Assembly (NCBI GenBank): GCA_017455585.1
Contig: JAFSZU010000155.1
Location: 1 to 34,545, forward strand
Source of the DNA: Bacteroidaceae bacterium
GTDB taxonomy: Bacteria; Bacteroidota; Bacteroidia; Bacteroidales; Bacteroidaceae
Length of the DNA: 34,545 nucleotides
Reading direction: 5' to 3'
The translations under genes were made by a program, and so were the position numbers. The notes below the pieces were generated by a model. The model had not been told where the DNA came from and made no database searches. It saw only the letters and a list, made by a program, of their open reading frames with translations. Position 1 is the stretch's first letter; the number at the start of each line of letters is the position of its first letter. Below, in pieces: positions 5,707 to 34,431 of this stretch.

Positions 5707-8700
5707 ATGAGCATGAGACTGCACAAGATAACCTTCGCCACGTTGCTGGCGGTGACATTTGCGCTGGCATCGGCGGCGGCAGAGCGGCAGAGACTCAACT
5801 TCAACGGCGGCTGGCGATTGTGCGTCGGCGACGTGCCGGGGGCTGCCGAGGCGGCGTTTGACGACAGCGGGTGGCAGTGCGTGACACTGCCCCGCGCCTT
5901 CAACGGCGACGAGGCGTTCCGCAAGGACATCGTGGATTTGACGGATACGGTCGTTTGGTACAGGAAGGAGTTTCGCGTTGAGCGTTCAGCGTTGAGCGAG
6001 CGTAAATACTTCATCGAGTTCGAGGGCGTGCGCCAGGGGGCGGACTTCTATCTGAACGGTCGCCACCTGGGATTCAGCGAGAACGGGGTGATGGCCTGCG
6101 GGTTCGACTTGACACCGTATATAATGGAGGGCGAGAACGTGTTGGCCGTGCGCTGCGACAACAGCTGGACCTACCGCTCGCGCCGCCACAACAGCCGCTA
6201 CCAGTGGAACGACCGCAACTTCAATGCCAACTACGGCGGCATACCCAAGAATGTTTACCTGCACATCACAGACAAACTCTACCAGACACTGCCGCTCTAC
6301 TCCGACCTCGGCACCACCGGCACATACGTCTATGCCACCGACTTTGACATCGCAAAATGTCATGCCACCATCCATGCCGAATCGCAGGTAAAGAATGAAG
6401 ACACACGGCCTCATACATTCAGGATGGGAATGCTTGTGCGTGATCCGGAAGGAAAGATGAAGGTCTCCACGATGTCACCTGTCGTTACATTGCAACCTGG
6501 CGAGACCCGCATTCTGAAGGCCGCCAACACAGCACACGAATTGCATTTCTGGTCGTGGGGCTATGGCTACCTATATACTGTTGAAACATATCTTATTGAG
6601 AACGAACGGGAATTCGATAACGTGATCACCCGCACGGGCTTCCGCAAGACACAGTTCAAGGATGGCAAGATATGGTTGAATGACCGCTGCCTGATGGTGC
6701 ACGGCTATGCGCAGCGCACCAGCAATGAGTGGCCGGGCGTGGGGCTGAGCGTCCCAGCCTGGCTGAGCGACTACAGCAACGGGCTGATGGTGGCATCGGG
6801 CGGTAACCTCGTGCGTTGGATGCACGTCACGCCGTGGAAGCAGGACATCGAGTCCTGTGACCGCGTGGGACTCATCCAGGCCATGCCCGCCGGTGATGCC
6901 GAGAAGGATGTCACTGGTGCCCGCTGGGAGCAGCGCACGGAGTTAATGCGCGATGCCATCATCTATAACCGCAACAACCCCTCAATCCTTTTCTACGAGT
7001 GCGGCAACGAGAGTATCAGCCGCGAGCACATGCTGGAGATGAAGACCATCCGCGACGAGTATGACCCGCATGGCGGACGCGCCATCGGCAGCCGCGAAAT
7101 GCTGGACATCGACGAGGCAGAGTACGGAGGTGAGATGCTGTATATCAACAAAAGCCACAAGCACCCTATGTGGGCTATGGAATACTGTCGCGACGAGGGC
7201 TTACGCAAATACTGGGACGAATGGAGCTACCCCTATCATAAGGAAGGCGACGGCCCGCTATATCGCAATCAGCCCGCACCAGACTATAACCACAACATGG
7301 ATCAGTTTGCCATTGAGATGGTACGCCGCTGGTACGACTACTGGCGTGAGCGCCCTGGCACAGGCACCCGCGTCTCGTCGGGCGGCGTGAAGATTGTCTT
7401 CAGCGATACCAACACCCATCATCGTGGTGAGTCGAACTATCGTACCAGCGGCATCACCGATGCCATGCGCATCCCAAAGGATGCTTTCTTCGTGCATCAG
7501 GTGATGTGGTCGGGATGGGTAGAACCGGAAGAGGCAAAGACGTATATCATCGGCCACTGGAATTATAATAATGGTGAAGGAGTAATGGCGAAGGGTGAAG
7601 AGCTGAGGAAACCAGTCTATGTAGTGTCAACAGGCGATGAGGTGGAGCTGTTTCTGAATGGACGTTCGCTGGGTAAGGGTAGAGAGAGCTACCGTTATCT
7701 GTTTACTTTCGATAATGTGCCCTATGAACCAGGAGTGCTGGAGGCTGTAGCAAATGATGGAAGCCGATACAAGTTAGAGACCGTTGGTGAACCCTATCAA
7801 CTGAAACTGACGGCTATTGAGAACCCCGAGGGTACAAAGGCTGATGGGGCTGATATGGTGCTCTTTCAAGTGGAGGTGCTCGACAAAATTGGACGGCGAT
7901 GTCCGCTTGATGACCGTATGATCCACTTCGAGCTCTCGGGTGAGGCTACATGGATTGGAGGTATTGCCACCCGCAATAACCAGTCGTTGCAGCGCCCCGA
8001 TGACAATCGCCCGGAAGGGCTGCTCGACGCCGCCGCCACAAAGAATGTCTCGGACAACTACGTCGGTGCTATGTCCCTGCCTGTGGAGTGCGGCGTCAAT
8101 CGTGTGCTCGTCCGCACAACCACTCACGACGGCAAGATCTGCTTGACCGCCCGTGCCGACGGGTTACCGAAGACAGAGTTGAAAGTTAAAAGTTTAAAGG
8201 TGAAAGGTGAAGAATACCTGCCGCAGTTGACACTGAAAGGCCAACTGTCTCGCGGCGAAACACCAGTGATACCCTCCTATACAGAATTGGCCCGAGGCGT
8301 GAACATCGTTTCCGCAACAGCAGGTTATGATAGCGAGCACGCTGCATGCAGCTACGACGACAACGAGCTATCGGAGTGGAAGAACGACGGGCGACTCTCC
8401 ACCGCATGGATCACCTACAAGCTTGAGAAAGAAACCGTCATCGATGACATCTGCCTCAAACTCACTGGCTGGCGTCTGCGCAGCTATCCCCTCGAGATTT
8501 ATGCCGGCGAGACACTCATCTGGAGTGGCGAGACGGAACGCAGCCTCGGATATGTCCACCTGAAGCCCGTCACCCAGGTCAAGACCGATGAGGTCACTAT
8601 CCGCCTGAAGGGAGCCGGCAAGGACGAGGATGCTTTCGGCGGCATCGTGGAGGTGGCAGAACCCGCCGCCGGCGAGCTGGATCTTTTCAAGGCCAGGAAC

Positions 8701-8766
8701 GGCGGCGAGACCAAGAATGAGCTCCGCATCGTGGAGATAGAGTTTCTGGAGAAAAGCAATCAATGA
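5707..8766 (+). CDS. GH2 glycoside hydrolase (beta-galactosidase-like) with DUF4982 and C-terminal discoidin-like region
   Basis: This 1019-residue protein starts with a signal peptide (about residues 1-24, ending ALASAAA). A GH2 sugar-binding domain (about 30-210) with WYRKEF and YLNGRHLGF is followed by an immunoglobulin-like domain and the TIM barrel. The acid/base is Glu435 in ECGNES. The nucleophile is probably Glu492 in AMEYCRDEG, assigned only from spacing. About residues 610-680 resemble DUF4982 (GDEVELFLNGRSLG), and the C-terminus (about 860-1010) looks like a galactose-binding or F5/8-type sandwich. Such enzymes are common in rhamnogalacturonan PULs, where they remove galactose side chains; beta-galactosidase is therefore likely but not proven. 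The start is 3 bp after the PL11 stop. Three short heptamer-repeat islands lie in frame at 5975, 7571 and 8177, an unusual number for one gene. Confidence 0.85.
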   Translation: MSMRLHKITFATLLAVTFALASAAAERQRLNFNGGWRLCVGDVPGAAEAAFDDSGWQCVTLPRAFNGDEAFRKDIVDLTDTVVWYRKEFRVERSALSERKYFIEFEGVRQGADFYLNGRHLGFSENGVMACGFDLTPYIMEGENVLAVRCDNSWTYRSRRHNSRYQWNDRNFNANYGGIPKNVYLHITDKLYQTLPLYSDLGTTGTYVYATDFDIAKCHATIHAESQVKNEDTRPHTFRMGMLVRDPEGKMKVSTMSPVVTLQPGETRILKAANTAHELHFWSWGYGYLYTVETYLIENEREFDNVITRTGFRKTQFKDGKIWLNDRCLMVHGYAQRTSNEWPGVGLSVPAWLSDYSNGLMVASGGNLVRWMHVTPWKQDIESCDRVGLIQAMPAGDAEKDVTGARWEQRTELMRDAIIYNRNNPSILFYECGNESISREHMLEMKTIRDEYDPHGGRAIGSREMLDIDEAEYGGEMLYINKSHKHPMWAMEYCRDEGLRKYWDEWSYPYHKEGDGPLYRNQPAPDYNHNMDQFAIEMVRRWYDYWRERPGTGTRVSSGGVKIVFSDTNTHHRGESNYRTSGITDAMRIPKDAFFVHQVMWSGWVEPEEAKTYIIGHWNYNNGEGVMAKGEELRKPVYVVSTGDEVELFLNGRSLGKGRESYRYLFTFDNVPYEPGVLEAVANDGSRYKLETVGEPYQLKLTAIENPEGTKADGADMVLFQVEVLDKIGRRCPLDDRMIHFELSGEATWIGGIATRNNQSLQRPDDNRPEGLLDAAATKNVSDNYVGAMSLPVECGVNRVLVRTTTHDGKICLTARADGLPKTELKVKSLKVKGEEYLPQLTLKGQLSRGETPVIPSYTELARGVNIVSATAGYDSEHAACSYDDNELSEWKNDGRLSTAWITYKLEKETVIDDICLKLTGWRLRSYPLEIYAGETLIWSGETERSLGYVHLKPVTQVKTDEVTIRLKGAGKDEDAFGGIVEVAEPAAGELDLFKARNGGETKNELRIVEIEFLEKSNQ
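5975..6002 (+). repeat. In-frame heptamer island in GH2 gene (first)
   Basis: Four consecutive 7-mers, with GCGTTGA occurring twice and GCGTTCA and GCGAGCG as variants. They encode residues about 90-98 (VERSALSER), just after WYRKEF in the sugar-binding domain, where GH2 proteins have a variable loop. Confidence 0.6.
7571..7605 (+). repeat. In-frame heptamer island in GH2 gene (second)
   Basis: Five consecutive 7-mers of an ATGGTGA / ATGGCGA / AGGGTGA type, each starting with A. They encode a loop (GEGVMAKGEELR) between the HWNY strand and the following beta-strand of the DUF4982-like domain. Confidence 0.55.
8177..8211 (+). repeat. In-frame heptamer island in GH2 gene (third)
   Basis: Five consecutive 7-mers, for example AGTTGAA, AGTTAAA and AGGTGAA twice. 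They encode a Lys/Glu-rich linker (LKVKSLKVKGEE) between domains. The reverse complement of AGTTGAA matches the units of the array upstream of aspS (30684-30802). Confidence 0.7.
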
Positions 8767-11030
8767 AACTACCAAAGGACATGAGCAAGATGAAACGAAT
8801 CCTATCTGCATTCCTGTGTTTATTCTGTGCGGGCTGCATGACAGCCGCGACACCAGAGCGCAAGCAGTTGTTTGATGCAGACTGGCAATTTGCCCTCAAC
8901 GACACAAGCCGGTGGCGGACAGTGAACCTGCCGCACGACTGGAGCATTGAGGGGGCTTTCGACAAGGACGCGCCAGCGGGCAATGACGGCGCCTACCTGC
9001 CGACGGGCGTGGGCTGGTACAGGAAAAAAATAATAATTAAGAATGAAGAATTAATAATTGATAAGAGGCTGCGGCTGTATTTCGAGGGTGTGTATATGAA
9101 TGCCGAGGTCTATGTGAACGGACAGCGGGCAGGCGGTCACCCCTATGGCTACTCATCGTTCTTCGTCGATATCACACCTTATATAAATTTAGGAGTTAAC
9201 ACGGTGGAGGTGCGGGTCGATAACTCTCAGCAGAAGAACTGCCGGTGGTACAGCGGGTCGGGCATCTATCGACATGTCTGGCTGTTGACGACGGGCCGCA
9301 GGTACATCGATGAGTGGAGTGTGAGCGTGACCACGCCCGACATCCACACGGTGAGCCTCAAGGCCGAGGTGGTGATGGAGGACGGGACGCGCAAACCCAT
9401 CGAGAAGACGCTGCACGTGGAGAATCCGCGTCTCTGGTCACCCGGCGATCCTTATCTCTATGAAACAACCCTTGAAGCAGAAGGCGACCAGATTCCCGTC
9501 ACGTATGGCATCCGCACAATCTCGTGTGATGCCGCGCAGGGACTGAGGCTCAACGGCAAACCTATCTTGCTCAACGGCGGCTGTGTGCATCATGACAACG
9601 GCATCCTGGGGGCGGCGGCCTACGATGCAGCTGAATATCGCAGGGTGAGACAGCTCAAAGAGGCGGGCTTCAATGCTGTGCGCACCTCGCACAACCCGCC
9701 CTCGGAGGCTTTCCTGCGGGCTTGTGATGAGCTGGGGCTGCTGGTGATTGACGAGGCATTTGACGGCTGGCGCGAGAAGAAGAACGACCACGACTACTCG
9801 ACGCTCATCGACCAATGGTGGCAGGAAGATATCCGGGCGATGGTGCTCCGTGACCGCAACCATCCCAGCGTCTTCTGCTGGTCAACAGGCAACGAGGTCA
9901 TCGAGCGCAAGAAGATAGAGGTGGTGAAGACGGCTCATCGGCTGGCCACGCTTTGCCGCGCGCTCGATGAGCAGCAGCGCCCTGTGACTTCTGCACTCTG
10001 TGCCTGGGACAGCGATTGGGACATCTATGACCCGCTTGCAGCCGAGCATGACGTTGTGGGTTACAACTATATGATTCACAAGGCCGAGAGCGATCATGAG
10101 CGCGTGCCACAGCGTGTGATGGTGCAGACAGAAAGCTACCCCCGCGATGCCTGGCAGAACTATGACCGGACGATGAGGCGTCCCTACGTGATCGGTGATT
10201 TCGTGTGGACGGCCATCGACTATCTGGGCGAATCGGGCATAGGCCGCTGGTATTATGAAGGCGACGTGCCGGGCGAGCACTGGGAGCGTCCGCTCTTCCC
10301 GTGGCACGCTGCCTACTGCGGTGACATCGACCTGACAGGGTTGCGCAAACCCATCAGCCATTACCGCTCGATGCTGTGGAACGAGGACGGCGAGCAGCTC
10401 TATATGGCTGTGCGCGAGCCTGATGGATACAACGGCAAGGTGAAGACGACGCTCTGGGGCACGTGGCCGACTTTCGAGAGTTGGACATGGCCGGGGCACG
10501 AGGGCAAGCCCATCGAGGTGGAGGTCTGTTCGCGTTTCCCCAAGGTGCTCCTCTACCTGAACGACCAGTTGGTTGCTGAGAAGGAGACATCCAACAACAT
10601 GGCTGTTTTCACGCTGCCCTATCAACCTGGCACGCTTCGTGCAGAAGCGGGAGGCAAGCAGACCGTCTTGCAAACTGCCGGCGAAACCAGGCTCATCCGT
10701 CTCACTGCCGACCACACCACACTCCACGCTGACGGGCAGGACCTCGCCTTCATAACCATAGAACTCACCGATGCCAAAGGAATCCTGAATCCCACCGCCG
10801 ACAACGAGTTAACGGCAACAATTACCGGCCCTGCCACGCTGATAGCATTCGGCAATGCCGACATCAAGGACTGTGACAGCTACACCGACGGCACCCATAA
10901 AGCCTGGAAGGGACGGGCACTGCTGGCCGTCAGGAGCACGCCGAAGGCGGGCCGGGTCATGGTGGATATACGGGGAAAAGGCTTGAAGGCATCCACCCTC
11001 ACGATAAAATCTGTGTCCAGTGTTAAATAA
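8763..11030 (+). CDS. GH2 beta-galactosidase, possible lipoprotein
   Basis: This 755-residue classic GH2 enzyme starts with an ATGA overlap with the preceding GH2 gene. ATGs at 8781 or 8790 would give a more usual signal peptide. The sequence FCAGC (Cys25 counted from 8763) could be a lipobox, though Cys at -3 is atypical. The sugar-binding domain begins at about residue 35 (NLPHDWSIEGAF) and contains WYRKK and YVNGQRAGGHPYGY. The TIM barrel carries RTSHNPPS, the acid/base Glu378 in STGNEV and the nucleophile Glu457 in VQTESYP, spaced 79 residues as expected. The C-terminal sandwich includes LYLNDQLVAEKE and a big_1-like segment. It probably releases beta-galactose from oligosaccharides. An AT-rich heptamer island is embedded in frame at 9029-9063, lengthening the loop after WYRKK. 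Confidence 0.9.
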   Translation: MKLPKDMSKMKRILSAFLCLFCAGCMTAATPERKQLFDADWQFALNDTSRWRTVNLPHDWSIEGAFDKDAPAGNDGAYLPTGVGWYRKKIIIKNEELIIDKRLRLYFEGVYMNAEVYVNGQRAGGHPYGYSSFFVDITPYINLGVNTVEVRVDNSQQKNCRWYSGSGIYRHVWLLTTGRRYIDEWSVSVTTPDIHTVSLKAEVVMEDGTRKPIEKTLHVENPRLWSPGDPYLYETTLEAEGDQIPVTYGIRTISCDAAQGLRLNGKPILLNGGCVHHDNGILGAAAYDAAEYRRVRQLKEAGFNAVRTSHNPPSEAFLRACDELGLLVIDEAFDGWREKKNDHDYSTLIDQWWQEDIRAMVLRDRNHPSVFCWSTGNEVIERKKIEVVKTAHRLATLCRALDEQQRPVTSALCAWDSDWDIYDPLAAEHDVVGYNYMIHKAESDHERVPQRVMVQTESYPRDAWQNYDRTMRRPYVIGDFVWTAIDYLGESGIGRWYYEGDVPGEHWERPLFPWHAAYCGDIDLTGLRKPISHYRSMLWNEDGEQLYMAVREPDGYNGKVKTTLWGTWPTFESWTWPGHEGKPIEVEVCSRFPKVLLYLNDQLVAEKETSNNMAVFTLPYQPGTLRAEAGGKQTVLQTAGETRLIRLTADHTTLHADGQDLAFITIELTDAKGILNPTADNELTATITGPATLIAFGNADIKDCDSYTDGTHKAWKGRALLAVRSTPKAGRVMVDIRGKGLKASTLTIKSVSSVK
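9029..9063 (+). repeat. In-frame AT-rich heptamer island in second GH2 gene
   Basis: Five consecutive 7-mers: AATAATA, ATTAAGA, ATGAAGA, then ATTAATA and ATTGATA. They encode a segment (IIIKNEELIIDK) between WYRKK and LRLYFEG. The sharp drop in GC against the surrounding gene makes the insertion easy to see. Confidence 0.72.
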
Positions 11031-11044
11031 GATATTTATTTCTA

Positions 11045-15766: not shown

Positions 15767-15799
15767 TTGGTAATTAGAAACAGACAAAAGAATATTGAT

Positions 15800-17869
15800 A
15801 TGAAAAAGTACATTAAATATATATTGGCTTTGGCTGTGACCACGGGCACCTTCACCGCGTGTGTGGACGACATCAACGTGGGCAACGCCTTCCTGGAGAA
15901 AGCACCCGGCGTGGATGTAAATATTGATACCGTGTTCTCCAAGGCCGAATATACCCGCAATTTCCTCTGGAGTGCCTACGGACAGCTTTACTGCACCTAT
16001 ACCTCCGGAAACATGATGAACGGAGCACCCATTGACGTGCTCTCCGATTCCTATCACTGCTATGTCAGCTGGGGCGGACCCAAGCAGAGCTACTATCCCG
16101 GACTGCTGACAGAGAACGCACAGGACGTGGATGACGGCAACCTGCAAGGCAAATTCTCCTATTCCACAAAAGGCAGCCCCAGCGACCCCGACGGTCAAGG
16201 GTTGAACAGCGATGCCGGCGGCCGTGTGTCCATCTACGAGACCGTTCGCAAGTGCTGGCAGCTTATTGAGAATATTGACCGTGTTCCCGATATGAGTGAT
16301 GCCGAGAAGAGCCGTCTGCGCGGAGAGGCATACACCATCATGGCGAGCCGCTACTACGACGCCTTCCGCAATTTCGGCGGCTTATGTCTGGTGGACAGGG
16401 CCTACGAAGTGGGAGAGAATTTCACCCAGGGCCGTTCCACAGCCTGGCAGACTGTGGAGTTCATCGACTCGCTTTGCCAGTGTGCCATCAATGAGCCCGG
16501 ATACATCTGGAATATCCCTGATGCCGACGTAGGCCAGTGGTCGGGTCGCCTGACAAAGGCATCGGCACGTGCCCTGCGTGCAAAGGTCTGGATGTTTGCC
16601 GCATCACCCCTGTTCAACAGCGCTGCGCCCTACATCACCTACGACAAGAAACCCACAGGCCTGGAGGACGAGCACCATGTATGGTTCGGAAAGGAAGACC
16701 CCACGCTGTGGCAGCGCTGTCTGCAGTACTGCAATGACTTCTTCACCGACAACGAAGCCAACGGCAACTATTATCAACTCATCCAGCCCGCCACACAGGA
16801 CGAGGGCGGCTACCGCATGGCCTATCGCCGTGCCTACCGCTACCGCAACAACGAGACACGTCATGAGAAGATCTTCGATGCACAGCCCACGCAGTACTTC
16901 AGTGACGCCGTCGTGAATGGCGAGCGCCAGAACAACTGGGGGTGGGGGTGGAAAGGTTTCGCCATCGACTGCTATCGTCAGGGCGGTGCCGTTCCCACCA
17001 ACGAGTTGATGGAGTGCTTTGGCATGCAGGATGGTCGCAACTTCCCCTATGCCGACATTTACGGTCCGGGCAAGAACCCCAACGGCATCGACATGTTTGC
17101 CGATCGTGACCCGCGTCTGTATGAGACGATGGTGGTGCCCCGTTCCTCCTTCCCCTCGGGAGTGGTGGGTGACTACAACGGCTACACCTATATAGATACA
17201 TGGTACCACGGCGCCATGCGCACAGCACCCAACGAGTTCGGTGCCGAGGGTAACGACGATGTAGCCTCCGGTTACAGGAAGTTCAAGTGGATGCTGGACT
17301 ACTCCAACGACAAGCTGAACGACGAGTACATCGGCATCTCCTACATCCGACTGGCCGAGATGTACCTCATCCGTGCCGAAGCCAAGGCCGAGACGGGTGA
17401 TTTGGCAGGCGCGCTCGACGACCTCCATGTGGTGCGCAGCCGCGTGGGTCTGGGCCGTATAGAGACCATGAACCCCAGCCTGAACCTGACCACCAACAAG
17501 GAGAATCTCATCAACGAAATCCTGCGTGAGCGCAACTGCGAGATTGGTGCCGAGTGTGGCGACCGCCTCTACGACATGGTGCGCCGCAAGCGGCAGGATC
17601 TCTTCACCAAGCCGCTGCATGAGATTGTCATCTACCGTCTGGACGCCAACGGCAACCGCATGGGCAAAGATGCCGACGGCAATGACGTTGACACGAATTG
17701 GGATCCCAGCACGCCTTGGCCCAAGTTTGAGTACGAGAAACCACAGATTGTCAACGGCGCACGCCGCTGGTGGGATGAAGGCTTCTGGACCAACAAATGG
17801 TATTTGGATCCTGTCTCCCGTGATGAAATTCAGAAGGGCTATGGCCTTACACAGAATCCTGGATGGTAA
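15800..17869 (+). CDS. SusD/RagB-family surface glycan-binding lipoprotein (pair 1)
   Basis: The start at 15800 gives MKKYIKYILALAVTTGTFTAC with lipobox Cys21; the frame is open upstream to 15767 but that start would spoil the signal. The mature protein is about 668 residues, somewhat long for SusD. It contains typical SusD elements: RLRGEAYTIMASRYYDAFRNFGG, AKVWMFAASPLFN, then the late IRLAEMYLIRAEAKAETG repeat region and the ending GLTQNPGW. SusD proteins bind glycan at the cell surface and act as a hinged lid on SusC. It lies 33 bp after susC 1 and forms an obvious pair with it. Substrate specificity is unknown. Confidence 0.94.
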   Translation: MKKYIKYILALAVTTGTFTACVDDINVGNAFLEKAPGVDVNIDTVFSKAEYTRNFLWSAYGQLYCTYTSGNMMNGAPIDVLSDSYHCYVSWGGPKQSYYPGLLTENAQDVDDGNLQGKFSYSTKGSPSDPDGQGLNSDAGGRVSIYETVRKCWQLIENIDRVPDMSDAEKSRLRGEAYTIMASRYYDAFRNFGGLCLVDRAYEVGENFTQGRSTAWQTVEFIDSLCQCAINEPGYIWNIPDADVGQWSGRLTKASARALRAKVWMFAASPLFNSAAPYITYDKKPTGLEDEHHVWFGKEDPTLWQRCLQYCNDFFTDNEANGNYYQLIQPATQDEGGYRMAYRRAYRYRNNETRHEKIFDAQPTQYFSDAVVNGERQNNWGWGWKGFAIDCYRQGGAVPTNELMECFGMQDGRNFPYADIYGPGKNPNGIDMFADRDPRLYETMVVPRSSFPSGVVGDYNGYTYIDTWYHGAMRTAPNEFGAEGNDDVASGYRKFKWMLDYSNDKLNDEYIGISYIRLAEMYLIRAEAKAETGDLAGALDDLHVVRSRVGLGRIETMNPSLNLTTNKENLINEILRERNCEIGAECGDRLYDMVRRKRQDLFTKPLHEIVIYRLDANGNRMGKDADGNDVDTNWDPSTPWPKFEYEKPQIVNGARRWWDEGFWTNKWYLDPVSRDEIQKGYGLTQNPGW

Positions 17870-17876: not shown

Positions 17877-17911
17877 ATTGACAATGTATAATTGACAATT
17901 CAAAGTTCAAA
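17877..17911 (+). repeat. Heptamer island between susD 1 and susC 2
   Basis: Five consecutive 7-mers, including ATTGACA twice, ATTCAAA and GTTCAAA. They fill almost the whole gap between the two genes. Confidence 0.65.
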
Positions 17912-17914
17912 GAT

Positions 17915-20701
17915 ATGAAAATAAAGAAATTATTTCTATATACCTTGGCGGGACTTTTCGGCGCTCCTGTAATGGTCGGCGCCCAGGTGACGCTCAGCGA
18001 CAAGGAGTCGCAAAAGGTAGATTTAGGCTATGGTGTGGAGCAGTCGGAGTTCCTCACGACGGCGGCCACGACCACCATCACTGCCGAAGAACTCCGCCGC
18101 ACCTCCGCCATCAGCCTGGCAGATGCCCTGTATGGCAAGCTCCTGGGCCTGAACGCCTACCAGAACACAGGCTTCAAGGGCGAGGAAGGCCGCGGCGCAA
18201 CATTTAACATACGTGGCGTGCAGACTACGGGCGAGAAAGACATTCTCATCCTTGTCGATGGCGTGGAGCGACCCATTGACCGCCTCACGGTAGAGGAGGT
18301 GGAGAGCGTTACCGTGCTGAAAGACGCGGCCGCCGTGGCACTCTACGGGCATGAGGCCATCAACGGCGTACTCCTGGTGAAGACCAAGCACGGCACCAAG
18401 GACGGTAAATTCCACTTCAAGGTGGGACTGTCCCACAAGATTCAGTTTGACCCGCAGACGGCCGATATGGTCGATGCCTACGGCTATGCCAAAGCACTGA
18501 ACCAGGCACGCCAAAACGACGGCCTCACTCCTGCCTACACCGATGCCGAACTGCAGAAGTTCGCCGATGGCAGCGACCCCCTGGTCTATCCCAATGTTGA
18601 TTGGAAGAAGGAAGCCTTCAAGAACACGGCTCATGAGTCCAACGCCTACCTCTCCTTCTCCGGTGGAACCGACAGGGTGCAGTATTATACACAGCTCGAC
18701 TACACCGATGCACGCGGACTCTACAAAAACCCCGACCAGGGCGACTGGAACTCTCAGTTGAAGTATTCCAAGGCCAATATCCGTGCCAACGTGGACTTCG
18801 AGGTGAGTAGTACCACCCGCGTGAAAACCAATATCTTGGGAATCCTCATGGAAACCAACGGTGTGCCCAACGTCAGCTCCAACGACGCTTGGTGGCATCT
18901 TTATAAAGTGCCCGCACTGGCCTTCCCCGTCCAGACGGCAGGGGGCGTGTGGGGAGGCAGTCAGACCTACGGCAACTTCAACCTTCTGGCCAAGGCCGAG
19001 GGTACCGGATTCATGAAGACCCACCAGCGCCAGATATGGGCCAACGCCACGCTGGAACAGGACCTGGACATCATCACCAAGGGGCTGAAGTTCTACGTGG
19101 GAGCTTCCTACGACAACTCCTCTAACACCGTCGAGACCCGCTCCAAGGGTTATCAGTATGGTTGGAACTGGTATGACGCTAATGGCACTATGCAGGAAAC
19201 CGTGATGGGAACCGTCGAGGACAAACTGGTCTTCAACAACTGGGTGGATACGCAGTGGCGCATAGCCACTTTCAATGCCGGACTGAAGTACGCCTGGCAG
19301 TTCCAGAACGGCGACAACTTCGCCGCCAACGCCAACTACAACATGAAGAGCGAGATCCGTGACAACCGCAGCAACACCTGGTACCGCACCAACTGGCAGC
19401 TGGCATTGCACTATGACCACGCCAACCGCTTCATGGCCGACTTCGTGATGGCAGCCAACGGCTCCAACCGCAGCTATCCGGCCAAATGGGCAGGCTCGCC
19501 CACCTTGGGCTTGGGCTACATCTTCATTAACAATCCCGAGAGCAGTCTCTTTAATTACGGCAAGGTCCGCCTCTCCGGTGGCCTCCAGCACACCGACTAC
19601 GTGCCGCAGGCCGGCCTCTGGCTCGCTGCCTGGAACAACTCCCACGGTCAGTTCTGGTACGGCAACAACTTCCAGAGCTCCTGGGGAGCCTTCCTCACAC
19701 AGTTCCCCACCGATGACTTCCTGCAGGAAGCTGCCTACAAGGCCAACTTCGGTACCGACCTGCGCATTGCCAACTGCCTGGACTTCACGGCCGACTTCTT
19801 CTATCAGCAGCGCCGCAACATCCTGGTGAGTGCATCTGCCCTCAACTCTGCGGTCGTCGGCATTCAGTCGTCGTATGACGATGAAGGACGCGTGGAGAGT
19901 TATGGACTGGAACTGGGACTGCGCTTTGCCAAGACCTTCCAGAATGGTCTGAACCTGAATGCCGGTGCCTCCTTCTCCACCGTGAAGAGCAAGATTCAGC
20001 GTTGGATTGAGACACCCGCCTATCCCAATCTCTCTGTGATTGGCACACCCGCCGATGCCGAGCGAGGACTCATCGCTCTGGGCTTCTTCCAGAGTCAGGA
20101 AGAAATCGACAACAGCCCCGTCCAGCAGTTCGGACAGGTGAAAGTGGGCGACATCAAGTACAAGGATGTCAACGGCGACGGTGTCATCAACGAAAATGAC
20201 TACGTGGCACAGGACTACGGCAACGCCTTCCCCGCACTCAACTACGCTTTCACGCTGGGAGCAGAGTACAAGGGATTCGGCATCAACGCTACCCTGCAAG
20301 GTGCTGCTCATCAGGTGAAGAACCTGCGCTACGTGGATGGCGTATGGGGTGCCCTCTCAGATAACCGCAACCTCTCGCAGGAGTACTACGACCACTGTTA
20401 TGACGTGGCCGGTGCCAGCGCAGATTTTCCGCGTCTCTCCACGGAGAACGTGGCCAACAACGCCCAGAACTCTACTATCTGGTACCGCAACGTCAGTTGG
20501 TTGAAACTGCGCGACTGCGAGCTCTATTACAAGCTGCCGGAATGCGTCTTGAAGCCCCTGAAGATCACATGTGCCAAGGTTTTCGTACAAGGACAGAATC
20601 TCCTCTCCTTCGACAATATCGATGCGATGGATGCCGAGAACCTCAACACCGGCTATCCCGTGATGAAGAGCGTGAACCTGGGACTGTCAGTGCAATTCTG
20701 A
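17915..20701 (+). CDS. SusC/RagA-family TonB-dependent transporter lacking the N-terminal extension (pair 2)
   Basis: This 928-residue SusC homologue has a signal peptide ending at about residue 24 (MVGAQ). It goes almost directly to the plug: the carboxypeptidase-regulatory-like domain found in pair 1 is missing, which accounts for most of the shorter length. Plug motifs include FNIRGVQTTGEKDILILVDG and VLKDAAAVALYGHEAINGV. The barrel ends in LSVQF with a terminal Phe. A DVNGDGVINENDYV Ca-like loop lies in the late extracellular region. It should import a glycan distinct from, or a different size class of, that handled by pair 1 (inference). A recognisable TonB box is not obvious, so how it couples to TonB is an open point. 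Confidence 0.93.
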   Translation: MKIKKLFLYTLAGLFGAPVMVGAQVTLSDKESQKVDLGYGVEQSEFLTTAATTTITAEELRRTSAISLADALYGKLLGLNAYQNTGFKGEEGRGATFNIRGVQTTGEKDILILVDGVERPIDRLTVEEVESVTVLKDAAAVALYGHEAINGVLLVKTKHGTKDGKFHFKVGLSHKIQFDPQTADMVDAYGYAKALNQARQNDGLTPAYTDAELQKFADGSDPLVYPNVDWKKEAFKNTAHESNAYLSFSGGTDRVQYYTQLDYTDARGLYKNPDQGDWNSQLKYSKANIRANVDFEVSSTTRVKTNILGILMETNGVPNVSSNDAWWHLYKVPALAFPVQTAGGVWGGSQTYGNFNLLAKAEGTGFMKTHQRQIWANATLEQDLDIITKGLKFYVGASYDNSSNTVETRSKGYQYGWNWYDANGTMQETVMGTVEDKLVFNNWVDTQWRIATFNAGLKYAWQFQNGDNFAANANYNMKSEIRDNRSNTWYRTNWQLALHYDHANRFMADFVMAANGSNRSYPAKWAGSPTLGLGYIFINNPESSLFNYGKVRLSGGLQHTDYVPQAGLWLAAWNNSHGQFWYGNNFQSSWGAFLTQFPTDDFLQEAAYKANFGTDLRIANCLDFTADFFYQQRRNILVSASALNSAVVGIQSSYDDEGRVESYGLELGLRFAKTFQNGLNLNAGASFSTVKSKIQRWIETPAYPNLSVIGTPADAERGLIALGFFQSQEEIDNSPVQQFGQVKVGDIKYKDVNGDGVINENDYVAQDYGNAFPALNYAFTLGAEYKGFGINATLQGAAHQVKNLRYVDGVWGALSDNRNLSQEYYDHCYDVAGASADFPRLSTENVANNAQNSTIWYRNVSWLKLRDCELYYKLPECVLKPLKITCAKVFVQGQNLLSFDNIDAMDAENLNTGYPVMKSVNLGLSVQF

Positions 20702-20703: not shown

Positions 20704-20738
20704 GTAAATTGTTAAATATCTAATCGTAAATTGAACAA
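20704..20738 (+). repeat. Degenerate heptamer-like spacer before susD 2
   Basis: The 35-bp gap can be read as five 7-mers, several containing TAAAT (GTAAATT, GTTAAAT, CGTAAAT). Similarity between units is weak, so this could be chance in AT-rich DNA. Confidence 0.3.
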
Positions 20739-20739
20739 T

Positions 20740-22443
20740 ATGATTACGAATATATATAATAAGGTAGCGGTGGGAGTGCTTGCTTTCCTCTTGCCTCTTT
20801 CCTCTTGCCTCCTTTCCTCTTGTGCCGATCTGGACTACACCGAGGAAACGACCCGCGACGAGGAGTGGACCTATGAATACTTTGCCAACGGCATCAAGAA
20901 CTTGGTCTTTGATGTCTATGCGCAGGTTTATAATAATGAATTTGAGTCCAACAGCCCCTACTTCCTTGCCGGAGCCACCGACGAAGCACAGTATGCACTC
21001 GCCACGGGCGACGTCAACAGCTATGTCAACGGTGGATGGAGTCCGGCCAATCCATACGACCGCACATGGACCAAGTCCTATACCGCCATCGCCGATGTCA
21101 ATATGTATCTGGAAAAGATTGACCAGACAGATATATCCGACTGGCAGTACAACAGCGACTACAAGAACTGGATGGCACAGATGGAGCTCTTCCCCTACGA
21201 ACTGCGCTTCCTCCGCGCCTACTTCTATTTCGAACTGTTCCGCGCCTATGGTGATGTGCCCCTGGTGACCACCACGCTCACCAATGGCGAGGCCAACAGC
21301 ATTCCGCGCACGTCCGCAGACAAGATCGTGAAGTTCATCGTCGATGAGTGCGATGCCATCGCACCCTATCTGCCAGAGACCTATGCCACCGAGATCGGTG
21401 CCGAGGTGGGACGAGCAACCCGTATCGCCGCCTTTGCCCTCAAGGCCCGCACCCTGCTCTATGCCGCCTCTCCGCTGCATAACCCGACGGGCGACAAGGA
21501 CAAGTGGGCACGCGCTGCAGAGGCTTGCAAGTATATTCTTGACAATGCCTCTCAGTGGGGACTGAAGCTCAGTGCCTACGGCTCCCTCTGGGGGCACGAT
21601 GCTTTCTTCAATCCGGAGCTCATCTTTGGCCTCGGACGTGGAGAGAGCAACACTTTCGAGCAGGCCAACTATCCCATTGGCGTGGAGAACGCCTCATCGG
21701 GTAACTGCCCCACACAGAGCTTGGTAGATCAGTATGAGTATCAAGACAACGGTGAGACCTTCCTCCAACGCAATCCCGGCGAGATTGACCTCCTTCTGGA
21801 AGATCCCTATGAGGGCCTTGACCCGCGCTTTGCGCTCACTGTGGTGAAAAACGGCGACGAGTGGCCCAGCAACGGTGCCCAGAAGAAAGCGATTGAGACC
21901 TTTGTCGGTGGCTTCAACGCCGCTCCCAAGTACGGTGCCACACCCACGGGCTACTACCTTCGCAAGTTCGTTGATGGCTCCTGCGTTACCACTGCCGACA
22001 ACCAGACCACGCGCCGCCACACGTGGATCATCTTCCGCCTGGGAGAGTTCTATCTGGACTATGCCGAGGCCGTCTTCAATGCCACTGGCAGTGCCAACGA
22101 TGCCACCTACGGCCTCACCGCCAACGAGGCTGTCAACAAGCTGCGCACGCGCGACGATATCCAGATGCCCAAGTTCACCGAGGACGGCGACGCCTGGGTG
22201 ACACGCTATGAGCGTGAACGCCTCGTGGAACTCGCCTTTGAGAACCATCGTTTCTGGGACGTGCGCCGTTGGAAGAAGGGGGCACAGTACTTTAAGACCA
22301 TTCAGGTGGCTACCATTAGCAACGACCTGATTCTCTCGCGTTCCGCCGTCACACGCCAGTGGGACGAGAAGTACAACCTTTACCCCATTCCGCAGTCCGA
22401 ACGCATCAGGAATGCCAACCTCACCCAGAACCCTGGATGGTAA
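20740..22443 (+). CDS. SusD/RagB-family surface glycan-binding lipoprotein (pair 2)
   Basis: The ATG at 20740 is preferred over an in-frame TTG at 20731. The signal peptide carries two candidate lipobox cysteines, Cys23 and Cys28 (LPLSSC and LLSSC), because its coding DNA is a heptamer repeat (20784-20826). The mature protein shows SusD signatures: ELRFLRAYFYFELFRAYGDV, TRIAAFALKARTLLYAASPL, a late LGEFYLDYAEAVFNATG helix pair and the ending NLTQNPGW. It partners the SusC encoded just upstream. At about 567 residues it has a typical SusD length. Which cysteine is lipidated cannot be decided from sequence. Confidence 0.94.
   Translation: MITNIYNKVAVGVLAFLLPLSSCLLSSCADLDYTEETTRDEEWTYEYFANGIKNLVFDVYAQVYNNEFESNSPYFLAGATDEAQYALATGDVNSYVNGGWSPANPYDRTWTKSYTAIADVNMYLEKIDQTDISDWQYNSDYKNWMAQMELFPYELRFLRAYFYFELFRAYGDVPLVTTTLTNGEANSIPRTSADKIVKFIVDECDAIAPYLPETYATEIGAEVGRATRIAAFALKARTLLYAASPLHNPTGDKDKWARAAEACKYILDNASQWGLKLSAYGSLWGHDAFFNPELIFGLGRGESNTFEQANYPIGVENASSGNCPTQSLVDQYEYQDNGETFLQRNPGEIDLLLEDPYEGLDPRFALTVVKNGDEWPSNGAQKKAIETFVGGFNAAPKYGATPTGYYLRKFVDGSCVTTADNQTTRRHTWIIFRLGEFYLDYAEAVFNATGSANDATYGLTANEAVNKLRTRDDIQMPKFTEDGDAWVTRYERERLVELAFENHRFWDVRRWKKGAQYFKTIQVATISNDLILSRSAVTRQWDEKYNLYPIPQSERIRNANLTQNPGW
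20784..20826 (+). repeat. Heptamer island forming the SusD 2 signal peptide
   Basis: TTTCCTC (three times) alternates with TTGCCTC (twice), with one extra C at 20812 and a final variant, TTGTGCC. The block encodes the hydrophobic core and both lipobox cysteines of the lipoprotein signal. Confidence 0.72.
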
Positions 22444-22487: not shown

Positions 22488-24452
22488 ATGAAACATATAA
22501 TCCAATATTTAGGCGCACTGCTGGCGGTGGTTCTCATGGGCACCACTTTCACGGCCTGTGTGGACGATGACGGCCCAATGACGGCTAACAGCACACTGGG
22601 TATCAAAACGTTCTTTCCAACAAAGGTGGTCGCCAACCAGCCGATGACCATCAATGGTTCTGGCCTCAATGCCGCCACAGAAATAGAATTCCCCGGTGGC
22701 GCGAAAGTGACAGATTTCGAAATCGTCAGCGACAATATGATCCGTGTCAACGCCCCTGCAGGCATTGCTGCTGAAGGGGGCAAGATTGTCGTGCGCAACG
22801 CCGATGACGCAGCAGAGTCCCGACTGCCGCTGACCCTCGGACACCCCCAGGTGACAGGATTCGACAAGCAGCTCGGCGAGAGCGTCACGGGTGGCGACCT
22901 CATCACCGTCTATGGCTCCGACCTCGAGTCCGTTAACAGCATAGAACTCCTCGACACCGACTCTGTTCCACAGCTGATAGACCAGAAGGACTTCTATCGC
23001 AAGGGAACCAGCACGGTCATCTTCCGCGTGCCTGCGAAAAATATCTATAAAGGCACCTTCGTGGGATATGTCCACACCTACGACGGACAGCAGTTCGCCA
23101 TGCCCGAACTGGCCTACGAGCCCGCTGCTGACGGCGGTCACTGGGAGACAGTGAAGACGACAATCTGGGAGAACAAGGATCCCGATGGCACCGGCAAGGT
23201 CAGCTGGAACGGAACCTACCGCTTCGCGCTCGAAGGCCATGATGGCAACAACGAGTGCATCGCCGAAATCCCGCAGGATGCCTGGGACAAGATGAAGACC
23301 GGCACATTCTATCTGAAGTTCAGACCGGAGACTGACTGGTACCAGGTGCGTGTCACCACCGGCTGGTGGGATCCTCAGTGGATGGGCAAGGACAACGACA
23401 TCTCGCCCAACAACATGGCCGATCGGATTATCGACAACGAGGACGGTACGTACTATATTGAAATCAACTTCGGTGACGACCCGATTGTGGAAGCCCTTGA
23501 TGAAAGGCATCTGCTCTTCACGGGCGACGGTTACACCCCACTTGAAATCTACTTCTCCGAAGATGTATGGATTGAAGGCGAAGGACACTTGGAAATCGTC
23601 AAGACGACATTCTGGAAGAACACAGATCCCGATGGCACTGGCAAGGTCAGCTGGAATGGAATCTACCGCTTCGCCCTCGAAGGTCACGATGGCAACAGCG
23701 AGTGCATCGCTGAACTCCCGCAGGATGTCTGGGACAAGATCAAGACCGGCACATTCTATATGAAGTTCAGACCAGAGGCCGACTGGTACCAGGTGCGCAT
23801 CACCACCGGCTGGTGGGATCCCCAGTGGATGGGCAAGGACAACGACATCTCGCCCAACAACATGGCCGAACGGATTATCGACAACGAAGACGGTACCTTC
23901 TACATCGAAATCAACTTCGGAGACGACCCGATTGTGGAAGCCCTCGATGATAGGCATCTGCTCTTCACCGGTGACGGCTACACCCCGCTCGAACTCTATT
24001 TTGCAGAAGAAGTCTGGGTCGGTGGCGGCGGTGCTGCCAAGGAAGTGGATTTCTGGACCAATGAAGACCCCAGTGGAACCGGCAAGGTCAGCTGGAACGG
24101 AATCTACCGCTTCGCCCTCGAGGGTCACGATGGTAACAACGAGTGCATCGCTGAACTCCCGCAGGATGTCTGGGACAAGATCAAGACTGGCACATTCTAT
24201 ATGAAGTTCAGACCGGAGGCCGACTGGTACCAGGTGCGCATCACCACCGGCTGGTGGGATCCCCAGTGGATGGGCAAGGACAACGACATCTCGCCCAACA
24301 ACATGGCCGATCGGATTATCGACAACGAAGACGGAACCTTCTACATCGAAATCAACTTCGGAGACGACCCGATTGTGGAAGCCCTTGATGATAGGCACTT
24401 GCTCTTTACGGGCGACGGTTACACACCACTGAAACTCTACTTCATGGAGTAG
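22488..24452 (+). CDS. Surface glycan-binding lipoprotein with two IPT/TIG domains and three tandem C-terminal repeats
   Basis: This 654-residue lipoprotein has a lipobox at FTAC (Cys24) and sits where SusE/SusF or other surface glycan-binding proteins sit in PULs. Residues about 30-112 and 115-216 look like IPT/TIG immunoglobulin folds. Three copies of a domain of about 140 residues follow (about 222-361, 371-510, 520-654). Each has VSWNGxYRFALEGHDGN, the aromatic stretch DWYQVRxTTGWWDPQWMGKD and a final LLFTGDGYTPL strand. The Trp/Tyr cluster is the likely sugar-binding platform, so three sites per molecule are expected; this is inference. Copies 2 and 3 are closer to each other than to copy 1. 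It should present captured glycan to the second SusCD pair and the GH5 enzyme. Confidence 0.85.
   Translation: MKHIIQYLGALLAVVLMGTTFTACVDDDGPMTANSTLGIKTFFPTKVVANQPMTINGSGLNAATEIEFPGGAKVTDFEIVSDNMIRVNAPAGIAAEGGKIVVRNADDAAESRLPLTLGHPQVTGFDKQLGESVTGGDLITVYGSDLESVNSIELLDTDSVPQLIDQKDFYRKGTSTVIFRVPAKNIYKGTFVGYVHTYDGQQFAMPELAYEPAADGGHWETVKTTIWENKDPDGTGKVSWNGTYRFALEGHDGNNECIAEIPQDAWDKMKTGTFYLKFRPETDWYQVRVTTGWWDPQWMGKDNDISPNNMADRIIDNEDGTYYIEINFGDDPIVEALDERHLLFTGDGYTPLEIYFSEDVWIEGEGHLEIVKTTFWKNTDPDGTGKVSWNGIYRFALEGHDGNSECIAELPQDVWDKIKTGTFYMKFRPEADWYQVRITTGWWDPQWMGKDNDISPNNMAERIIDNEDGTFYIEINFGDDPIVEALDDRHLLFTGDGYTPLELYFAEEVWVGGGGAAKEVDFWTNEDPSGTGKVSWNGIYRFALEGHDGNNECIAELPQDVWDKIKTGTFYMKFRPEADWYQVRITTGWWDPQWMGKDNDISPNNMADRIIDNEDGTFYIEINFGDDPIVEALDDRHLLFTGDGYTPLKLYFME
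23151..24449 (+). repeat. Triplicated domain-length direct repeat in the binding-protein gene
   Basis: Three highly similar copies have anchor positions at 23196, 23643 and 24084 (the AAGGT of the shared motif), giving periods of 447 and 441 bp. Long runs are identical at the nucleotide level, including synonymous positions. This indicates recent duplication or gene conversion. Confidence 0.9.
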
Positions 24453-24529: not shown

Positions 24530-26263
24530 ATGAAAAAGAGTATCGTTACTGCATTGCTGGCCACCGTGATGATGGTGGCGCACCCTGCCACCGCCGCAGA
24601 CTTCGAGACCGCTACGGCTGCCGTGAAGAATATGGGACTGGGCTGGAACCTCGGCAACACGCTGGAAGCCAACGGCCAGAAGGTGACAGATGTCACCAAC
24701 CCCGCCTACTGGGGCGGGCAGGACCTCTCGTCGGAGTCCTGCTGGGGCCAGTTCCCCACCAAGTCCGAACTGATGAAGATGATGCAGCGCGCCGGCTTCG
24801 GAGCCATCAGGGTTCCTGTCACCTGGTACAACCACATGGATGCCGGCGGCAACGTGGATCCCGCTTGGATGGCACGCGTGCACGAAGTCGTGGACTATGT
24901 GATGAACCAGGGCATGTACTGCATCATCAACGTTCACCATGACACAGGTGCAGACGGTGACAACTTCAAGTCATGGATTAAAGCCGACGAAGCCAACTAC
25001 GCCCAGAACCGCATCCGCTATGAGAAACTCTGGCAGCAGATTGCCGAGGAGTTCCGCGATTACGGCGAACGCCTCCTCTTTGAGGGATATAATGAGATGC
25101 TGGACGGCCTCAGCTCTTGGTGCTACGCTTCCTTCTCCGCATCCAGCCAATACGACAAGGCTGTGGCCACATCCGCCTACAACGCCATTAACAGCTATGC
25201 CCAGAGCTTCGTCAGCACCGTCCGGGCCACCGGAGGCAACAACGCCCAGCGCAATCTCATCGTCAGCACCTATGCCGCTGCCAACGGCTATGGCAGCTGG
25301 AATAGCCATCTGGCAGAACCGCTGACTTCGCTCCGAAAGCCTGAAGGCGAGACCAATCACATCGCTTTTGAGGTGCATGCCTATCCCGCTATTGCGAATA
25401 GCAACAACACAGACCGTCCCCTTGCCGACATCAAGCAGGAAGTCGATGGCATGATCAGCCTCCTGAAAAAGCACCTCGTCTCCAAGGGAGCACCTGTGAT
25501 ATTCGGCGAGTGGGGCACCTCCAACGTCGATGCCGCAGAGACCGACTATGTGAAACGTCCCGAACTCATGAAGCAGTTCTGCCAGTACTTCGTCCAGCAG
25601 TGCAAGGCCAACGACATCGCCACCTTTTACTGGATGGGCATCACAGACGGCGCCGCACGACTCTTCCCCGCCTTCAGCCAAGCCGACCTCGCGCGCTGGA
25701 TCCTGCAGGCCTATCATGGCAGCAATTACGCCCCCTTTCTGCCCGAGCGCAGTGACTACGGCTCCAGCTGCATTGCCTGCACCGTGGATTTCACCCAGCA
25801 GTGGGCGGAACTCAACCTGGTTCAGGGGAGCTTTACCGTCAGGGACTACGCGCAGATAATCATGGAACTGGAAGAAGCACCCGCAGCAGGACTCCTGAAC
25901 ATCAAGATATACGGGAAATCCAACAGCAGCGTCCAGGTCACCGCCGCCACTTCCACCATACCCTTTACTGCGCAGATGGGAACCATCACCCGCATCACCC
26001 TCCAGTGTATGCAGCAGATCGGCACTGTCCGCGTGAAGAACGTCTGGCTCGTGACCAAGGACGGAGAGAAAACGCCCTGCGACCCAAGCGTCTATTGGGG
26101 GTGCACGATGAGTGATATTGATGTCACCTATCCCGCTTCTGTCACCGCCTTAAACGCTAAACCTTCAACCCTCAACTATTTCGACCTCTTAGGTCGGCCA
26201 CAGGCAGGCCAGCTAAAACCAGGCATATATATCAGAAACGGAAAGAAGATAATTATTCGCTAA
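24530..26263 (+). CDS. GH5 endo-beta-1,4-glucanase (subfamily 4-like) with C-terminal binding module and sorting-like tail
   Basis: This 577-residue protein has a Sec signal peptide ending at about residue 23 (HPATAA). The barrel starts with MGLGWNLGNTLEA and contains FGAIRVPVTWYNHMD and MYCIINVHHDTG. The acid/base is Glu189 in FEGYNEM and the nucleophile is Glu327 in IFGEWGTS; the spacing is normal. The pattern is most like GH5 subfamily 4, which attacks xyloglucan, mixed-linkage glucan, glucomannan or cellulose. Residues about 405-540 form a beta-sandwich seen after Prevotella cellulases, probably carbohydrate-binding. The last residues (YFDLLGR ... YIRNGKKIIIR) match the PL11 tail, suggesting export or surface anchoring by the same route. 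Heptamer units precede that tail. It should produce oligosaccharides for the GH3 enzyme next door. Confidence 0.9.
   Translation: MKKSIVTALLATVMMVAHPATAADFETATAAVKNMGLGWNLGNTLEANGQKVTDVTNPAYWGGQDLSSESCWGQFPTKSELMKMMQRAGFGAIRVPVTWYNHMDAGGNVDPAWMARVHEVVDYVMNQGMYCIINVHHDTGADGDNFKSWIKADEANYAQNRIRYEKLWQQIAEEFRDYGERLLFEGYNEMLDGLSSWCYASFSASSQYDKAVATSAYNAINSYAQSFVSTVRATGGNNAQRNLIVSTYAAANGYGSWNSHLAEPLTSLRKPEGETNHIAFEVHAYPAIANSNNTDRPLADIKQEVDGMISLLKKHLVSKGAPVIFGEWGTSNVDAAETDYVKRPELMKQFCQYFVQQCKANDIATFYWMGITDGAARLFPAFSQADLARWILQAYHGSNYAPFLPERSDYGSSCIACTVDFTQQWAELNLVQGSFTVRDYAQIIMELEEAPAAGLLNIKIYGKSNSSVQVTAATSTIPFTAQMGTITRITLQCMQQIGTVRVKNVWLVTKDGEKTPCDPSVYWGCTMSDIDVTYPASVTALNAKPSTLNYFDLLGRPQAGQLKPGIYIRNGKKIIIR
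26151..26178 (+). repeat. In-frame heptamer island before the GH5 C-terminal tail
   Basis: Four consecutive 7-mers: TAAACGC, TAAACCT, then TCAACCC and TCAACTA. They encode part of the linker NAKPSTLNY, directly before FDLLGR. Closely similar units recur right after the tail at 26261-26281. Confidence 0.65.
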
Positions 26264-26281
26264 ACTCTAAACCCTCAACTT
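26261..26281 (+). repeat. Heptamer island containing the GH5 stop codon
   Basis: Three 7-mers (TAAACTC, TAAACCC, then TCAACTT) provide the GH5 TAA stop and the entire gap to the GH3 start codon at 26282. They match the units at 26151-26178, so the tail-coding segment is flanked by the same repeat. Confidence 0.65.
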
Positions 26282-30588: not shown

Positions 30589-30665
30589 TGTCTCGCAGAA
30601 AGCACAGAAAGAGCGAACACAGATTGCACAGATTACACGGATGCAGGATGTGTCTCGCAGAAAGC
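30589..30665 (+). repeat. Repeated 15-mer in the aspS leader
   Basis: TGTCTCGCAGAAAGC occurs at 30589-30603 and again at 30651-30665, starts 62 bp apart. Between them lie shorter repeats of the ACAGATT type. The function is unknown; it looks like expanded intergenic repeat DNA. Confidence 0.65.
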
Positions 30666-30683: not shown

Positions 30684-30802
30684 TTTTAACTTTCAACTTT
30701 CAACTTATAACTTTCAACTTTCAACTTATAACTTTCAACTTATAACTTTCAACTTTCAACTTTCATCTTTCATCTTTCATCTTTCATCTTTCAACTTATA
30801 AC
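30684..30802 (+). repeat. 17-unit heptamer tandem array in the aspS leader
   Basis: Exactly 119 bp can be divided into 17 uninterrupted 7-mers of three main types, TTTCAAC, TTATAAC and TTTCATC (the last four times in a row). It ends 8 bp before the aspS start codon, so unit number would change the untranslated leader and could affect ribosome access. Confidence 0.95.
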
Positions 30803-30810
30803 TCTCTATA

Positions 30811-33924: not shown

Positions 33925-33927
33925 ACT

Positions 33928-33967
33928 ATTCATGATATATTCGTGAACCCATTCGTGGATATTCGTG
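33928..33967 (+). repeat. ATTCGTG-type dispersed repeat
   Basis: ATTCATG (33928) is followed by three copies of ATTCGTG (33939, 33951 and 33961) with uneven spacing of 10-12 bp. This is intergenic repeat DNA between the STAS-like gene and the lipoprotein gene. Confidence 0.55.
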
Positions 33968-34014
33968 TGAGAAAGAATAATGATCTATTCTATTTGCTCT
34001 TCATAACCATAATT

Positions 34015-34431
34015 ATGCGCCACACATTATTCATTATTCATTGTTCATTATCCATTCTTCTTGCGGCGTTGACGGCAAGCAGCTGCACTGAGTCCTTCGA
34101 GGACCGTTGTCGTCGGGAGGCACGGGAGTTCACCGAGAAGCAGTGTCCGCGTCTGGTGGAGAAGAACATCATCCTGGACAGCATGACCTATGTGGACACG
34201 CCCCAAGGGTTTATCTACCACTACCGTGTCACGGGCGAACTGGATAATCCCGAACTGCTGACCGCCGACAACCTGGAGCCCATCATCGAGGGAATGCGCC
34301 AGAACCTGCGCCAGAACCTCTCGCTGCGGGCCTACAAGGAACGGGGTCTCTCTTTCACCTATCGCTACCTCTCGGACTCCACAGGAGAACCTTTCGTGGA
34401 TACCACCTTCGGACCCGAAGACTATCAGTAA
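34015..34431 (+). CDS. Small lipoprotein of unknown function
   Basis: The preferred start at 34015 gives a 138-residue protein with a signal peptide ending in lipobox ASSC (Cys24). An upstream in-frame ATG at 33943 would add 24 residues that read through repeat DNA and spoil the signal. The mature part is rich in charged residues, with DRCRREAREFTEKQCP and a later ENLEPIIEGMRQNLRQNLSL helix. I do not recognise the family. The hydrophobic core of the signal peptide is encoded by a heptamer island (34026-34060). It follows the STAS-like gene by 90 bp, but base composition differs, so it need not belong to that pair. Confidence 0.75.
   Translation: MRHTLFIIHCSLSILLAALTASSCTESFEDRCRREAREFTEKQCPRLVEKNIILDSMTYVDTPQGFIYHYRVTGELDNPELLTADNLEPIIEGMRQNLRQNLSLRAYKERGLSFTYRYLSDSTGEPFVDTTFGPEDYQ
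34026..34060 (+). repeat. Heptamer island forming the lipoprotein signal peptide
   Basis: Five consecutive 7-mers, ATTATTC twice and ATTGTTC, then ATTATCC and ATTCTTC. They encode the hydrophobic core (LFIIHCSLSILL) of the signal peptide. Confidence 0.72.

Follow-up and report, generated by a model that had tools for sequence, protein, structure and literature searches.

Tandem heptanucleotide repeats have been described in several groups of bacteria. TAACTGA repeats are reported from Beggiatoaceae, cyanobacteria, and five Bacteroidetes, with many sets per genome, a patchy distribution, and a location mostly just 5' of start codons (PMC4679880). The GGGAATC and GGGGA(C/T)T repeats of Xanthomonas and Nostoc are intergenic, degenerate at a C/T position in Nostoc, and variable in length among relatives, and one inverted pair has been noted; the short tandemly repeated repetitive (STRR) sequences of cyanobacteria comprise three heptanucleotide units in Calothrix (PMC4692102 and work cited there). 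Among bacterial repeats, those with a 7-nt unit exceed those of other lengths. Here we describe period-7 islands in a 34,545-nt stretch of a Bacteroidaceae genome (the window; contig JAFSZU010000155.1 of GCA_017455585.1, our contig C80, from a 2.82-Mb assembly that is 80% complete). We propose, tentatively, that these islands are heptamer arrays generated locally and not copies of one mobile repeat.

The arrays share the 7-bp unit, the many sets per genome, and the patchy occurrence with the TAACTGA repeats, which are a precedent in the phylum, whereas the first-pass annotation knew of no established equivalent in this group; a limited literature search met no report of such repeats from Prevotella. 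In contrast, PMC4679880 describes a single unit, related heptamers that are seldom repeated, and one indirect repeat, whereas the present genome has 52 units, frequent matched inverted pairs, and many intragenic arrays. The Xanthomonas and Nostoc repeats are G-rich and quadruplex forming (PMC4692102), whereas the present units are AT rich and of many kinds; several units per genome are a feature shared with the STRR sequences.

Islands were scored by comparing base i with base i+7 (match, +1; mismatch, -1.5). At a score of at least 12 the window contained six period-7 islands (starting at 5975, 8177, 9025, 20783, 30684, and 34025), 20 dinucleotide shuffles averaged 0.00, and among periods 4 to 23 the runner-up was period 14, with three islands. 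At a score of at least 8 there were ten islands, compared with a shuffle mean of 0.45 and a maximum of 3 (40 shuffles), and the predicted 7-bp excess is thus present; in having tandem 7-bp units above chance, the islands resemble heptanucleotide simple sequence repeats of the long (LSSR) or STRR type. The ten consist of an AT run at 30417 and nine of the eleven islands listed in the first-pass annotation, three of them marginal (17877, score 8.5; 26151, score 9.0; 26261, score 8.0), while the other two, at 7571 and 22450, both scored below 7 and are not supported. The islands are dispersed through coding and intergenic DNA, alike within a site and unlike between sites, and occur in both orientations (AGTTGAA at 8177, TTTCAAC at 30684); several lie in frame inside genes, with hydrophobic N termini and linkers among the sites. 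All of this had been proposed from the window and was borne out. The size proposed for many of the islands, five units or 35 bp, was near the modal length of 32 bp (22 of 227 islands in the genome), but the idea of a single repeat family failed, because these 227 islands fall into 52 consensus units.

The 227 islands were found in a pooled sample of 1.03 Mb of the same genome, a density of 220/Mb that is biased upward because the pooled contigs were partly chosen for hits; periods 4, 5, 6, 10, 11, and 13 occurred at 0 to 14/Mb. A sample of 20 contigs was picked regardless of hits, and after five wholly masked contigs were dropped, the remaining 15 (162,622 unmasked bases) held 27 strong period-7 islands. 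The same contigs held 14 islands of period 9, 8 of period 8, and a single one of each of periods 4, 5, and 6. Multiples of 7 were also enriched, and shuffled genome contigs gave no islands outside masked contigs. With genes called by a simple longest-open-reading-frame (ORF) method, in which starts are approximate, 103 of the 227 midpoints lay within called ORFs, compared with 202.8 expected from the coding fraction, so that islands are underrepresented in coding DNA without being excluded from it. AAAGTTG was the most frequent unit (73/227). In AACTTTC-type arrays (n = 114) positions 1 to 4 were conserved at 93 to 99% and position 6 at 96%, position 7 was C in 84%, and position 5 was T or C at 73:25, a ratio that was similar within genes (75:23), elsewhere (72:26), and in two other species (69:29).

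Neighboring islands were often paired. Among 70 neighbors 4 to 200 bp apart, 30 were inverted with matched units, 23 were direct, and 17 were unlike, whereas random pairing gave 10.7% inverted (533/5,000) and 12.1% direct. Within a family the order of the units was constant in all pairs, without a reversal: the first arm was AAAGTTN/AATGTTT (GTTGAAA type) in 15/15, AATTCAT in 4/4, AAATAAG/T in 4/4, and AGTGCAT in 5/5, in addition to two singletons. Spacers differed from locus to locus except in the AGTGCAT pairs, and 11 of the 30 pairs lay inside called ORFs. We know of neither a paired order nor an insertion into genes for the cyanobacterial STRR sequences. Pairs were few in other genomes; those in L118 (two) and G028 (one) were compatible with the same order, and the one in G105 was of an unrelated unit. 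Most single arrays no more than 25 nt from a gene end were oriented with the same unit pointing outward (49:15 at stops and 34:17 at starts), a rule that was strong for GTTGA (44:12) and AATTCA (14:1) and absent for AAATGGT (5:8) and GAATGAA (5:5). The first-placed unit carried stop codons in 10 of the 10 unit types tested and its complement in 3 of 10. G-poor leaders were considered as the cause of the order and rejected, since AATTCAT arrays, whose base bias is the opposite, also point outward.

Comparison with relatives identified sites that are filled here and empty elsewhere. For each of four proteins (NSS transporter, M20 peptidase, MurF, and AsnB) 21 relatives were searched. By AspRS, the closest relatives are L071 to L089 (89 to 93% identical). 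Comparisons were at the species level, with one genome per species, and all of these genomes, including our own, are metagenome assemblies. The NSS transporter loop measured 165 nt here and 6 nt in 17/17 genomes compared (+159), and the M20 peptidase loop measured 147 nt here and 33 nt in 21/21 loci from 20 genomes (+114); both inserts carry non-repeat spacers and one of the dispersed copies of a double-hairpin repeat. The MurF segment was 333 nt here and 195 to 321 nt in 20 relatives, 9 of which had 234 nt. The AsnB loop was 39 nt here and, in the 14 of 16 loci that were found, 21 to 24 nt in ten and 33, 39, 60, and 96 nt, respectively, in the other four; the 96-nt loop belongs to L279 and contains a different unit arranged as an inverted pair. 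Likewise, the GH2 loop at 9025 (57 nt here, 45 to 84 nt in 13 orthologues compared) contains arrays of other units in L359 and L365 (score, 17 each). In the 230 nt upstream of aspS, where the array at 30684..30803 ends 7 nt before the start codon (30811), 6 of 19 same-genus loci had a period-7 island with a score of at least 9 (at least 12 in 3), none of the TTTCAAC type, and one further locus had an 8-bp array. Arrays of other units at these three sites (AsnB, GH2, and the aspS leader) indicate that arrays arise repeatedly. Between species, sites thus differed both in whether an array was present and in its unit. In-frame arrays in conserved genes and the independence of the assemblies argue against an assembly artifact, with the caveat that several array matches were located at contig ends. 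With its hundreds of arrays, among them many matched inverted pairs that keep one order, and with orthologues that are array-free, this genome offers material for reading the birth of an array.

Within the genus, 65 of 121 genomes had matches to three TTTCAAC units (at most one mismatch); counts ranged from 0 to 308 per genome, and the genome of the window had the highest. In a sample of the phylum, such matches occurred in 12 of 395 genomes, from 10 families. The reversed-pattern control was uninformative, TTTCAAC read backwards being its own rotation. Other genera had period-7 islands built of other units. At L126:3577, L139:3416, L144:2434, and L145:4910, in different genera, a 32-bp AATTGTN-type array stood between two divergent TAnnTTTG-like boxes, which we presume to be promoter-like. 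An array 21-mer was also present in 19 viral stretches.

If the arrays are indeed generated locally, a 3' end under replication or repair would be extended in repeated 7-nt steps, each time re-annealing through just a few bases within a conserved core (AGTT/AACT, for example) and copying the remaining unit; extension of both sides of a gap, or copying of a fold-back, would leave an inverted pair of the same unit in fixed order. Such arrays would be neutral and would persist where tolerated: downstream of stops, upstream of starts, and, within proteins, in linkers, surface loops, and signal peptides. The observations that call for an explanation are the exact period, the locus-specific units, the matched pairs of constant order, the repeated birth at the same sites, and the unshared variant strings; iterated re-priming is consistent with most of them. 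Ordinary microsatellites, expanding through unequal exchange and slippage during replication, with polymerase geometry favoring 7 nt (an idea credited to Mrazek and co-workers in PMC4679880 and PMC4692102), are a somewhat unlikely alternative that agrees with the heptamer excess already reported for bacteria, with the enrichment of multiples of 7, with local blocks such as the four TTTCATC units at 30761-30788, and with the way variants cluster at positions 1, 2, 3, and 6. However, simple slippage alone does not account for inverted partners with matched units in constant order, so that this half of the earlier proposal of slippage or copying stands only in part, and it leaves the NSS and M20 inserts with their spacers unexplained. 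The T/C choice at position 5 varied in content among arrays (38/101 all T; 17.9 expected), and neighboring units resembled each other there only at the chance level (z, -0.12), whereas slippage simulated from a founder polymorphism gave a mean |z| of 2.0 to 12.7 over nine settings; a mutation-hotspot version gave little or no clustering and stays compatible. Templated variation and a mutation hotspot are not distinguished by this order test. In two other species, neighboring units were similar above chance at position 7 too. Interspersed variant repeats have been ascribed to misincorporation in human telomeres (PMC3919612) and to stuttering in Paramecium (PMC5855555). Copying between sites, the other half of the proposal, is disfavored: exact-string sharing among 35 long AACTTTC arrays (locus pairs observed versus unit-shuffled null, 145 versus 132.8 at 28 nt, 65 versus 53.9 at 35 nt, and 29 versus 18.5 at 42 nt) exceeded a simpler independent, identically distributed (iid) null but never the maximum of the unit-shuffled null, and copy-paste between loci was rejected on this basis, as one dispersed family was by the 52 units.

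RNA (or DNA) stem-loops under selection at the borders of genes, with arms that would join a stop to the next start or shield message ends and matching units that would reflect compensatory change, appear improbable. Four pairs picked by eye folded better than shuffles (z, -7.5, -4.3, -6.9, and -6.0), and the outward unit at gene edges and the stop codons in the first-placed unit are in keeping with such a role, but the pairs within ORFs, the 13 of 19 same-genus aspS leaders without an island at a score of at least 9, and the units that ignore the outward rule are not. Mobile elements of the miniature inverted-repeat transposable element (MITE) or repetitive extragenic palindrome (REP) type with heptamer arrays at their ends, which we regard as quite improbable, would likewise give a constant order through terminal inverted repeats, and they do describe the AGTGCAT pairs, the CACAGATT arrays, and the double-hairpin repeat that lies inside arrays and contributes to the M20 and NSS inserts; the 9-bp arrays of CACAGATTn are part of a MITE-like element. 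By inspection, however, GTTGAAA, AATTCAT, AAATAAG, and GTTTAAT pairs had unrelated spacers and no common outer ends or interior, string sharing was within the unit-shuffled null, and the genome gave no Y1_Tnp match at an E value of 0.001 or below (in an assembly 80% complete). Nor do the arrays fit REP sequences with a REP-associated tyrosine transposase, given this lack of a Y1_Tnp match and the double-hairpin repeat being a separate element. A telomerase-like terminal addition, the boldest reading, is quite improbable as well: both 3' ends of a double-strand break would gain the same heptamer (e.g., GTTGAAA) from one short putative template and be joined head to head, like fused telomeres, with units differing by template and hundreds of scars accumulating. 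The unit order in pairs matches two extended 3' ends joined in this way, but RVT_1 matches, one in our own genome and two in G105, were absent from four array-rich genomes (G037, G114, G028, and G062; metagenome assemblies 70 to 87% complete, in which divergent reverse transcriptases [RTs] could be missed). That the arrays require an RT or a Y1 transposase is disfavored, since by inspection several array-rich genomes gave no match to these enzymes. The one RT-like protein of our genome (L066:10038-11375; 445 amino acids, YADN motif) had PADLOC matches to generic RT models only (best E value, 4.9e-10). DRT10 demonstrates that bacteria can synthesize DNA of short units repeat by repeat; its 9-nt unit is set by a noncoding RNA, its product is single stranded, and no genomic arrays are described in the excerpts of PMC12632851, nor is a DRT10 gene shown in the present genome. 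Should the order stem from end extension, it would point to a repair or terminal-addition activity not yet described, one that also rewrites protein loops.

Several observations weigh against local generation by re-priming. No responsible enzyme was found in the RT and Y1 transposase searches of array-rich genomes, and the similar units in distant genera lack an explanation. Periods 8 and 9 were also enriched (46 and 83/Mb in the pooled sample), the latter partly due to the MITE-like element. Length class 7n+4 was the commonest in our genome, but the excess was modest (46/227; 32 expected); in other genomes 7n+5 was the commonest (26/108) and 7n+4 the second (21), and the length peak may partly be a score-threshold effect. 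Position 6 is as conserved as the AACT core, so that only positions 5 and 7 are free and a 4+3 cycle is not clean, and variants cluster at positions 1, 2, 3, and 6 as duplication would give. Because hotspot slippage also gives little or no clustering, the random T/C order is weak evidence. AsnB loops of 33 to 60 nt in L281, L283, and L284 had no detected array, and the nearly constant length of the GH2 loop indicates that sequence was replaced there and not added.

Table 1. Period-7 islands of the window with their position and context
Feature	Position	Score	Context
Island, unit GCGTTGA	5975..5998	12 (0 in shuffles)	Within GH2-family ORF 5707-8766 (Pfam GH2 domains)
Island, units AGTTGAA/AGTTAAA/AGGTGAA	8177..8211	18	Within GH2 ORF 5707-8766
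Island in loop	9025..9064	15.5	Precedes LRLYFEGVYMN, GH2 ORF 8763-11030
Weak island	17890..17912	8.5	Between SusD-like (15767-17869) and TonB-plug (17915-20701) genes (Pfam)
Island CTTTCCTCTTGCCTC, 7/14-bp period	20783..20811	14.5	Near N terminus of SusD-like ORF 20731-22443
Weak island, TAAACGC/TAAACCT/TCAACCC	26151..26176	9.0	Near C terminus of GH5 gene 24530-26263
Weak island, TAAACTC/TAAACCC/TCAACTT	26260..26279	8.0	GH5 stop to GH3 start (26282)
17-unit array, TTTCAAC/TTATAAC/TTTCATC	30684..30803	70.5	Upstream of aspS start (30811); AspRS (Pfam)
32-bp island, (ATTATTC)n	34025..34056	17.5	Hydrophobic N terminus of small ORF without Pfam match

The island in the GH5 gene (26151..26176) directly precedes FDLLGR, which we take to resemble a short tail of the type IX secretion system. 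A longer tandem repeat (447 bp, 2.9 copies) occupies positions 23154-24443 of the window, in ORF 22488-24452 beside a SusD-like gene.

Other repeat elements were identified in the same genome. The AGTGCAT pairs were the only ones with shared ends and interior and are copies of one element, with a 49-bp spacer in four of five; copies with this spacer were found in called ORFs at L058:13063-13152, L228:11322-11411, L241:4253-4339, and L249:155-241. The MITE-like element carries subterminal 9-bp repeats (CACAGATTn/nAATCTGTG) and TAAGTAG..CTACTTA-like ends, and it was located at L034:16117-16238, L043:18087-18238, L047:6754-6876, and L069:1564-1716, with a remnant-like sequence at 30617-30642 of the window. 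In the first 557 kb, inverted 9-bp pairs had the C-rich arm first in 10/10. The double-hairpin repeat (CTTSAAGnGTSAAGCG...CGAGCG) is REP-like, and often lies within heptamer or 9-bp arrays following TT. Its pattern was matched 23 times in 1.03 Mb, at sites that include L031:16807, L047:1622, L057:934, and L249:8546. Degenerate 9-bp arrays of the forms ATAGGTCTT and ATAGAGACT constituted a separate class, found at L031:15207-15265, L043:10478-10566, and L049:4616-4755.

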